From: Bacteroidota bacterium
Lineage (GTDB): Bacteria; Bacteroidota; Bacteroidia; Palsa-965
DNA length: 60,841 bases
Direction of reading: 5' to 3'
Assembly: GCA_013298545.1 (NCBI GenBank)
Contig: JAAFIA010000018.1
Span: forward strand, 1-60,841
Shown here piece after piece: positions 15,633 to 58,672 of the stretch. The notes below the pieces were generated by a model that did no database searches, had not been told where the DNA came from, and saw only the letters and a program-made list of their open reading frames with translations. Position 1 is the first letter of the stretch, and the number at the start of each line of letters is the position of its first letter. A program made the translations under genes and the position numbers.

Positions 15633-16547
15633 TTATTTCGCTACGCTAAATTTTCCGCGATTGATGACTTGTTCGTTTTCATCGAGCACGGCATAAGCGT
15701 AAATGCCTGTGGCAAATTTATAACTATCAATTTTGGCTTCGCGGTTTTCAACGCTATAACGTCCGGCTTCGCGGCCAGCAACATCATATACAACAACCGT
15801 TTTAGCAACCGTTGTATTGAAACGGAAATTGGTAAAATCGCTAGATGGATTTGGGAATACTTTTACTTCATTGACGATGTTGGCGGTTTCTGTTACATCC
15901 ACATAACCTGTAAATGAAATATCATCAACCCAAAGAAATCCACCCGGACGTGGAACATCATCATCTGTTGGCGTAAAGGCAATTAGCATGGTATCTGGAA
16001 TCAGGTTATTGAAAGCCGGATCGTAATAAAACTGATCGCTAAATCCTTGCCAAGAACCCACAGGGCCGTTGAGTACACGTCCAGCAAAAGCAATGGTATC
16101 TGAACTTGTGCCATTCCATTTGGTCAATACACAAAAAGCAAAAGCCGAATCGGCATTGTAAGCGGGAACATATTTTCCGTACCAATTAAAAAATTGCGGA
16201 CGATTGGTATAAGGAAAACCTTGTGTAATTCCGTTCAGTCCAACAGATCCTGTAAACGCAATCCCAAGTGTATCGGGAAGCGAAAAATTATTGGTGGTTA
16301 AAGCAATGCTTTGAATGAGCATAGCCGCTTGTCCGCCATGCGGTGTTGTAATATCTTTTGTTACACTCAATTGATTGCTACCACCAAAGAGGGTATAGAG
16401 AATATTAAATGTGCCCCATCCTTGCGGATCTTCATAGCTTGGCGGTCCAGCCTGTGTTGTCCAATTCTCAAAATCGAACGTTACTTGGGCTTGTGTGGCG
16501 GTTGTCAGAGAGCATGTTGTAACTAATGCAAGTAAAAGTTTTTTCAT
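15633..16547 (-). CDS. secreted protein with T9SS type A sorting domain
   Basis: A 304-residue protein with a signal peptide (about residues 1-20, ending TQAQ). The central 200 residues resemble a PCMD/jelly-roll-like carbohydrate-binding fold (DFENW at the start, LWVDDISFTG at the end), as often seen in Bacteroidota cargo proteins. The C-terminal 80 residues are a type A sorting domain: VFPNPSSDFTNF, VVYDVAGREAGRYS, FATGIYAYAV, and a final basic strand. It is expected to be exported through the outer membrane by the type IX system and fixed to the surface. Single gene with its own promoter. Confidence 0.85.
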   Translation of the reverse strand: MKKLLLALVTTCSLTTATQAQVTFDFENWTTQAGPPSYEDPQGWGTFNILYTLFGGSNQLSVTKDITTPHGGQAAMLIQSIALTTNNFSLPDTLGIAFTGSVGLNGITQGFPYTNRPQFFNWYGKYVPAYNADSAFAFCVLTKWNGTSSDTIAFAGRVLNGPVGSWQGFSDQFYYDPAFNNLIPDTMLIAFTPTDDDVPRPGGFLWVDDISFTGYVDVTETANIVNEVKVFPNPSSDFTNFRFNTTVAKTVVVYDVAGREAGRYSVENREAKIDSYKFATGIYAYAVLDENEQVINRGKFSVAK

Positions 16548-19142: not shown

Positions 19143-19309
19143 AGAGAATCTGTTTAAACTTTATCCTTTGAGTTTGTTATGCGTCTTTTTGCACCATACT
19201 TCGTTGCGTTTTTCGACCTTAGTCGCACTGCTATGGCCTTCAAAACGCGCCTCGTCTGGCACAAAAATCCATCATAACAATTCTCAAAAACAAATTTTAA
19301 ACAGATTCT
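19143..19309. repeat. MITE-like fold-back element, copy A
   Basis: A 167-bp element with perfect 14-bp terminal inverted repeats, AGAATCTGTTTAAA and TTTAAACAGATTCT. Further inner inverted pairs (TTGTTATG/CATAACAA and GCGTTTT/AAAACGC) suggest the whole unit folds back. About 90% of its bases match copy B at 58013-58177. No transposase is encoded. It occupies most of the spacer between the Kazal gene and tolC-like gene. No target duplication is visible at this copy. Confidence 0.8.
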
Positions 19310-57442: not shown

Positions 57443-57533
57443 GTCTATTTTTTCCCCATACCTCTTTTTCTTGTCTTTTTTTTTGCTCGGAAAAGCCCGT
57501 CAACAGGGCATTTTAATTTTTTTAATTTTTTCC

Positions 57534-57563
57534 TGTAACTAATTTTTACTTGGTGGCGTCTTA
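57534..57563 (+). promoter_or_regulatory. ECF-sigma-like promoter of small exported protein copy 1
   Basis: TGTAAC (57534-57539) and CGTCTTA (57557-57563) are 17 nt apart, the look of an extracytoplasmic-function sigma promoter. Copy 2 has the same two elements and spacing with a different spacer. No TAnnTTTG is present. Confidence 0.55.
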
Positions 57564-57607
57564 TGCATGAAAACCAACCAGAACTGCACATTTAAAAACG
57601 CCACACC

Positions 57608-57940
57608 ATGAAAAAGATCACTACCCTCCTCGCTTTCTTCCTGCTCATCGCAACAGCTTCTTTTGCTAATAACAGCAAAGACAAATACACATTGATGCTT
57701 GCAAAAATCCAAAAGCAACTCGCTTTCTCTGCTGCTGAAAAAGCGGAACTTGGAACAGGTATGGCCGTAGTAACATTCACCATCACAGAAAAAGGTGAAA
57801 TCGAAATCATTCAATTAGATGCAACAACCGATGCACAAGCCCAAGCTGTTCAGAAAAAATTACAACACTTCTATTTGCAAAATGCTCCGGTAAAAGTTGG
57901 TGCGACCTATACCCTCCGCGTCAACTTCCGACCTGAATAA
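57608..57940 (+). CDS. small exported protein, copy 1
   Basis: A 110-residue protein. Signal peptide ends ASFAN (about residue 20). The mature 90 residues consist of a helix rich in Lys/Ala (DKYTLMLAKIQKQLAFSAAEKA), then MAVVTFTITEKGEIEIIQLDATT, a second helix, and a final strand YTLRVNF. The strand-turn-strand with a Gly-Glu turn resembles the C-terminal fold of TonB-type proteins and related small periplasmic proteins of Bacteroidota. Function unknown. It is 98% identical in protein to copy 2 at 58289, differing at residues 79 and 104. Confidence 0.8.
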   Translation: MKKITTLLAFFLLIATASFANNSKDKYTLMLAKIQKQLAFSAAEKAELGTGMAVVTFTITEKGEIEIIQLDATTDAQAQAVQKKLQHFYLQNAPVKVGATYTLRVNFRPE

Positions 57941-57960
57941 ATTATACGTTCCTCGTTTAT

Positions 57961-57992
57961 AAAAACCATCGGCTTAGGCAGGTGGTTTTTTT
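57961..57992 (+). terminator. terminator after small exported protein copy 1
   Basis: AAAAACCATC pairs with GGTGGTTTTT (one G-T pair) around a 10-nt loop and continues in T. Confidence 0.8.
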
Positions 57993-58012
57993 GTTTGTTA
58001 TAAAACCGATTT

Positions 58013-58177
58013 AGAAGCTGTTTAAATTTCATCCTTTGATTTTGTTATGTGTCTTTTTGCACCATACTTCGTTGCGTTTTTTGACCGTAGTCGTTCTAAT
58101 ATGGCCTGCAAAACGCGCCTCGTCTGGCACAAAAATCCATCATAACAATTCTCAAAAACAAATTTTAAACAGCTTCT
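58013..58177. repeat. MITE-like fold-back element, copy B
   Basis: A 165-bp element with perfect 14-bp terminal inverted repeats, AGAAGCTGTTTAAA and TTTAAACAGCTTCT. Relative to copy A the fifth base is G instead of T on one side and C instead of A on the other, so pairing is kept. It lies between the two copies of the small exported protein gene. Confidence 0.8.
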
Positions 58178-58214
58178 TAGATTGAAAATTTTTTCCAGAA
58201 AAGTGATTTCTTCC

Positions 58215-58244
58215 TGTAACAAATCTTTTTCGGCATGCGTCTTA
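58215..58244 (+). promoter_or_regulatory. ECF-sigma-like promoter of small exported protein copy 2
   Basis: TGTAAC (58215-58220), a 17-nt spacer, then CGTCTTA (58238-58244). The leader up to the ATG is almost the same as in copy 1. Confidence 0.55.
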
Positions 58245-58288
58245 TGCATGAAAACCAACCAGAACTGCACATTTAAAAACACCACACC

Positions 58289-58621
58289 ATGAAAAAGATC
58301 ACTACCCTCCTCGCTTTCTTCCTGCTCATCGCAACAGCTTCTTTTGCTAACAACAGCAAAGACAAATACACGCTGATGCTTGCAAAAATCCAAAAGCAAC
58401 TCGCTTTCTCTGCTGCTGAAAAAGCTGAACTTGGAACAGGTATGGCCGTAGTAACATTCACCATCACAGAAAAAGGTGAAATCGAAATCATTCAATTAGA
58501 TGCAACAACCGACGCACAAGCTGCGGCAGTTCAAAAAAAATTGCAACACTTCTATTTGCAAAATGCTCCGGTAAAAGTTGGTGCGACCTATACCCTCCAC
58601 GTCAACTTCCGACCTGAATAA
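58289..58621 (+). CDS. small exported protein, copy 2
   Basis: Second copy of the 110-residue exported protein at 57608, offset by 681 bp. Only two residues differ (Ala79 for Gln79, His104 for Arg104), with several extra synonymous changes, so the duplication is recent or kept homogeneous by gene conversion. Promoter elements and the 5' leader were copied along with the gene; the fold-back element lies between the two units. Function unknown; ECF-type control would suggest an envelope-stress role, which is inference. Confidence 0.8.
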   Translation: MKKITTLLAFFLLIATASFANNSKDKYTLMLAKIQKQLAFSAAEKAELGTGMAVVTFTITEKGEIEIIQLDATTDAQAAAVQKKLQHFYLQNAPVKVGATYTLHVNFRPE

Positions 58622-58641: not shown

Positions 58642-58672
58642 AAAACCATCGATCGTTGATCGGTGGTTTTTT
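58642..58672. terminator. bidirectional terminator
   Basis: AAAACCATCGATC pairs with GATCGGTGGTTTT (one G-T pair) around GTT, with T following on the plus strand and the minus-strand gene ending at 58675. Confidence 0.85.

Follow-up and report, generated by a model that had tools for sequence, protein, structure and literature searches.

Pairs of an ECF sigma factor and an anti-sigma factor, with promoters that combine an AAC-containing -35 element and a -10 element of the CGTC type, are a kind of system that is known already, and the system described here resembles them in a sigma factor with region 2 and region 4 only, in a spacing of 16–17 nt, in the motif at the sigma gene's own promoter and in an adjacent membrane-anchored partner. 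It differs from them in that their anti-sigma factors have one module, whereas the partner found here has two to five tandem anti-sigma-like modules, and in that the targets are scattered envelope genes. In Bacteroides, an ECF21 sigma factor is found together with Dma, a dual membrane-spanning anti-sigma factor (Das/Dma; PMC13088901), and a pair resembling ECF21/Dma also appears in PMC9308784. Shared with that system are the Bacteroidota host, the order of a sigma gene followed by the gene of a large membrane anti-sigma factor (a putative one in the present case), a disordered periplasmic stretch and the envelope theme. For flavobacteria, PMC9723704 gives TAnnTTTG as the primary-sigma consensus and assigns promoters with a CGT box to ECF factors. 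Its SM6 promoters of Flavobacterium psychrophilum agree with those reported below in the CGT -10 element, in the ECF type and in including one sigma/anti-sigma operon, whereas the SM6 targets listed there include T9SS and band-7 genes and not the families found here. This particular regulon appears to be undescribed, and so do its multi-module partner and its free-standing TonB/TolA-like product: neither the element nor the regulon was found in the open literature searched, the main ECF classification papers lying outside that scope, and no Bacteroidota paper describing the motif was found by its text.

The window, i.e. the whole stretch of 60,841 nt that was analysed, contains a tandem pair of genes on the + strand, copy 1 at 57608..57940 and copy 2 at 58289..58621, each encoding an exported protein of 110 aa with a signal peptide and, from profile and fold searches, a predicted TonB/TolA C-terminal-like domain. 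The preliminary description of this DNA had called the genes nearly identical, with TGTAAC, exactly 17 nt and CGTCTTA before each of them, and both statements hold: 108 of the 110 residues agree, the exceptions being Q79A and R104H, and a motif search places the -35 element TGTAAC at 57534..57539 and 58215..58220 and the -10 element CGTCTTA, behind a 17-nt spacer, at 57557..57563 and 58238..58244, in both copies on the + strand and 44 nt upstream of the CDS. Both sites match the consensus derived from the sigma promoters (CTGTAACWWW and CGTCHTA), including the triplet of only A or T after TGTAAC. When the window was searched for TGTAAC-N15..19-CGTC, only these two sites and one minus-strand site at 15897 were obtained. 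The -10 element of both copies, CGTCTTA, differs from the TAnnTTTG -7 box of the primary sigma factor, a pattern which occurs 89 times on both strands of the window, presumably mostly by chance; the contrast which the preliminary description drew between the promoters of this pair and TAnnTTTG promoters is in line with the promoter classes of PMC9723704.

Each -10 element is followed by an unstructured untranslated leader of 44 nt (57564..57607 and 58245..58288, + strand), and each CDS by a terminator-like hairpin with a T run, at 57961..57990 for copy 1 (AAAACCATCG...GGTGGTTTTTTT; folding z -2.8) and at 58643..58670 for copy 2 (folding z -5.0), likewise on the + strand. The arms of the two hairpins are common to both copies (AAAACCATCG ... 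GGTGGTTTT) and the loops differ. As each copy has its own promoter, leader, CDS and terminator-like hairpin, each is a complete single-gene unit. Between the two units lies a MITE-like element of 165 bp (58013..58177), which has terminal inverted repeats (AGAAGCTGTTTAAA...TTTAAACAGCTTCT), shows an apparent TTA target duplication, is present in at least 40 genomic copies (40 scored ones and further candidates) and is not part of the regulon. A second copy of it in the window, also of 165 bp, was seen at 19145-19309, and the element generates spurious open reading frames such as the one at 58022-58495 (-).

Divergence between the two copies is distributed unevenly. The CDS differ at 13 of 333 nucleotides (11 codons, 9 of them synonymous; synonymous sites, too, are little diverged) and the leaders at one of 44, and the spacers at 9 of 17 positions and the 3' flanks, in a gapped alignment, in about 40% of the columns are far more diverged. 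The spacers are indeed quite different, as had been said, and their divergence is unexpected at the rate of CDS and leader (P 2e-9). The simplest account is probably that the duplication is older and that gene conversion has since made leader and CDS alike. The -10 box borders the block homogenised in this way, which leaves the -35 box, with the TTCC preceding it, and the terminator arms as the only independent evidence of selection within the pair. The argument of the preliminary description, that elements conserved against a changed spacer point to function, therefore stands for the -35 box and falls for the -10 box, which is contiguous with the block, and it is here replaced by comparative data.

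Alternatively, the conserved block could be the mere residue of a very recent duplication, with the likeness of the promoters inherited and not selected; leader and CDS are 96–98% identical, the -10 box adjoins them, and the related genome G006 has a plainly recent duplication of its own, in which the homologous unit was copied from promoter to terminator. Such a reading is, however, largely refuted already and is to be considered most improbable, since the -35 box has been kept across a spacer of the divergence given above, the terminator arms have been kept while the loops are new, and homologues of only 25–47% identity in other genomes retain both boxes. The separate and recent event in G006 means that duplication of this gene is recurrent, and the gene was probably duplicated for dosage. 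The two G006 copies, on contigs C23 and C8 (L093, L065), are 98% identical over the sequenced CDS, and the contigs break at the repeat.

The near-constant leader had also been suggested to work at the RNA level. It is near-constant, although the 38 unchanged nucleotides reported earlier are in fact 36 after CGTCTTA, followed by one change and seven more identical positions. That it acts as an attenuator, a small-RNA target or a structured switch would fit with this single change in 44 nt and with a loose likeness to the leaders of a diverged paralogue in the same genome (contig C122) and of the G006 homologue. We consider such a role very unlikely, as the leaders fold no better than shuffled sequences (z +0.5 to +1.2), their identity is hardly above that of the neighbouring CDS, and the leaders of other homologues vary in sequence as well as length.

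The exact motif TGTAAC-N17-CGTCTTA occurs three times in the 4.53-Mb genome (once for the reversed control), namely at the two sites of the window and, on a different contig, upstream of an ECF sigma gene; the short form TGTAAC-N16..18-CGTC is not enriched genome-wide over its reversed pattern (27 against 28), and neither is the relaxed form TGTAAC-N16..18-MGTCHHA in the same genome (15 against 13). As the looser patterns occur about as often as their reversed controls, they are unusable alone, and specificity rests on the longer -10 element, the 17-nt spacing, the position before genes and the conservation. When TGTAAC-N7..27-CGTCTYA was searched for in 12 genomes, spacer lengths peaked at 17 with 22 of 42 sites, and 31 of the 42 fell on spacers of 16–18 out of 21 possible spacings (binomial probability about 2e-18 when only 17 is counted, 5e-18 when 16–18 are). 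The motif of the window pair is not due to chance.

The ECF sigma gene lies at G000:C46:21409-21891, in the same genome as the window, and the exact motif starts 52 nt before its ATG. Its 161-aa product scores above the Pfam cut-offs for PF04542 (46.7 bits) and PF08281 (71.7 bits) and has Sigma70 region 2 and region 4 with no other sigma region, as is characteristic of ECF factors; the nearest NCBIfam model is NF058625, with 118 of 130 bits. The sigma factor is present in 97 of 198 genomes of the class, in most of them as a single copy, and the nearest named relatives of the locus belong to metagenome-assembled Bacteroidetes. TGTAAC-N16/17-CGT precedes seven of eight sigma orthologues of the family, and TGTAAC is found at the own promoter in 68 of 72 sigma loci of a wider set. 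In an independent scan, TGTAAC-N16/17-CGT was located upstream of 79 of 80 named Bacteroidota sigma loci (shuffles 0.05 of 80), the 79 sites coming from a search that required TGTAAC. The consensus of these own promoters is CTGTAACWWW, a spacer of 16 or 17 and CGTC[T/A/C]TA, and, judged from the 79 of 80 orthologues, the sigma promoter is apparently autoregulated. The gene after the sigma operon (L091:4995-5519, -) encodes an exported protein which by eye resembles methionine sulfoxide reductase B.

There is strong support for the earlier proposal that these genes belong to a separate sigma-ECF regulon, as the element stands before a conserved ECF sigma gene, before orthologues of the window protein and before envelope genes, and the comparative evidence supports narrowing it to one candidate sigma factor, the 161-aa product. 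The promoter might instead serve several ECF sigma factors whose specificities overlap, and the 161-aa protein would then be one activator among others. PMC9723704 suggests overlapping ECF regulons for the CGT-box motif SM6, and in our genome another ECF sigma gene (L266, G000:C119) is preceded by the same CGTCTTA box together with GGCAAC/GGAAAC, so that cross-recognition is possible. We regard this sharing as unlikely, though as an alternative to be reckoned with, because TGTAAC is invariant in the 79 own-promoter sites, again in a set whose search required it, and because the arrangement is absent from the other 19 of the 20 sigma-region-2 loci of the genome, none of which shows TGTAAC-N15..19-CGT within 200 nt of upstream sequence. 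The C119 site suggests that the ECF factors of this organism may differ in -35 rather than in -10 recognition.

Five nucleotides after the sigma gene starts a partner gene, whose product has 581 aa here and roughly 250–470 aa elsewhere. In the genome of the window (L091:5656-7401, -; contig C46), five tandem anti-sigma-like modules precede a transmembrane helix. Counted with a profile of the first about 65 residues, there are two modules in 45 proteins, three in 29, one in 2 and five in our own genome. The partner protein of a relative, with 425 aa, was modelled from an alignment of 38 rows; the model shows confident repeated three-helix modules and one transmembrane helix, followed by a disordered region and, at the C terminus, a small alpha/beta part. 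Matches to zf-HC2, a domain that occurs in zinc-finger anti-sigma factors, were obtained for 3 of 38 members (best 5e-6). Among the fold matches of highest probability are the anti-sigma factors RslA and ChrR, with E values of at least 2, which is not significant; the structure search gave no match below E 0.8, and the partner profile gave only chance hits against PDB sequences. The natural reading is that the partner looks like a putative anti-sigma factor with tandem modules, an assignment that scores below the curated family cut-offs. Its identification as a Dma protein was rejected, as the model contains no barrel: the anti-sigma factor of ECF21/Dma ends in an outer-membrane beta-barrel, whereas the relative's model has three strands after its long disordered stretch, of low confidence there, and the partner here has repeated N-terminal modules.

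Besides the window pair, sites in the same genome precede the diverged paralogue (C122), the adjacent DUF2807/beta-barrel gene, the genes of three further proteins, of the types CarboxypepD_reg/DUF5686 (C57), CarboxypepD_reg/Plug/OMP_b-brl_3 (C64) and OMP_b-brl_2 (C122:53209), and an ORF of 206 aa on C136, and similar-looking genes in G001, G003, G004, G006 and G007 bear the same site. In addition, 34 of the 74 named loci have a second site directly behind the partner gene (shuffles 0.03), and the products of all ten genes tested there are DUF2807 or OMP_b-brl_2 proteins. Among homologues of the window protein, the site is present in G006, G002, G007 and G001, in the C122 paralogue and in G092 and G063, the last two representing two other families, and these sites end 28–49 nt before the start codon. 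The site is kept in all family members found; 7 of the 16 homologues examined are without it, all of them outside the family and more distant. No homologue of the window protein was found beside the sigma gene in the named loci at E 0.1. In the G002 homologue (L010:595-765) the promoter is kept and similarity is lost after about residue 57, possibly by a frameshift or an assembly error. The promoter-bearing genes would constitute a putative envelope regulon conserved across Bacteroidota, and its content makes envelope stress a plausible signal.

The window protein itself has a signal-peptide-like N terminus (MKKITTLLAFFLLIATASFA) without a lipobox, followed by about 88 residues. Its AlphaFold2 model, from a single sequence, has a pLDDT of 79, and in the VIA comparison each of the top 23 rows is a C-terminal domain of the TonB or TolA type (Z 7.9 to 4.4; next unrelated 3.8). 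Foldseek and profile search agree with this fold, the top profile hit being TonB (E 0.0024), and TonB_C hits with E up to 0.1 were obtained for 5 of 14 homologues. Assignment to a Pfam or NCBIfam family was rejected, as TonB_C (PF03544, 15.7 bits against a cut-off of 24.6), SMP and others all remained below threshold. The protein is thus predicted to be a periplasmic domain which resembles TonB/TolA C-terminal domains in predicted fold and weak profile similarity. TonB has an inner-membrane anchor and a proline-rich spacer, whereas the window protein, with its 110 aa, lacks both and appears to be a stand-alone secreted domain, most likely serving in docking to outer-membrane receptors or to Tol/Ton-type partners.

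The best explanation of the whole, which we hold to be very probable, is that the two copies are self-contained units read by one specific ECF sigma factor and belong to its envelope regulon. The basis for it is computational and consists of the promoter and its conservation, the link to the sigma gene, the gene content of the putative regulon and the fold. RNA polymerase with the 161-aa sigma factor would read CTGTAACWWW-N-CGTCHTA at each copy, and the same sigma factor would also drive its own operon. The single-span membrane partner, by its tandem cytoplasmic anti-sigma-like modules, would probably hold the sigma factor inactive until an envelope signal leads to its release. The released factor would then raise a dispersed set of envelope proteins, namely the two window copies and their diverged paralogue, with periplasmic TonB/TolA-C-terminal-like domains, as well as the DUF2807 adhesin-head/beta-barrel protein, the CarboxypepD_reg proteins and beta-barrel outer-membrane proteins, and gene conversion would keep the duplicated copies alike.

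An anonymous duplicated gene is hereby tied to a defined regulator, a promoter sequence and a conserved set of targets, and the regulon becomes legible from sequence alone in many uncultured Bacteroidota. A bolder generalisation, offered only tentatively and rather doubtful at present, is that of a Bacteroidota-wide envelope regulon in which the number of anti-sigma domains, two to five, would set the buffering of the sigma factor and free-standing TonB/TolA-C-terminal-like proteins would modulate the Ton/Tol-energised outer-membrane machinery. With the near-invariant TGTAAC-N16/17-CGTC as a guide, the regulon can be mapped in species that are in culture, among which Perlabentimonas gracilis M08_MB (L233) carries the locus, and the multi-module partner makes it possible to ask directly if a stress response is tuned by the valency of its anti-sigma factor.
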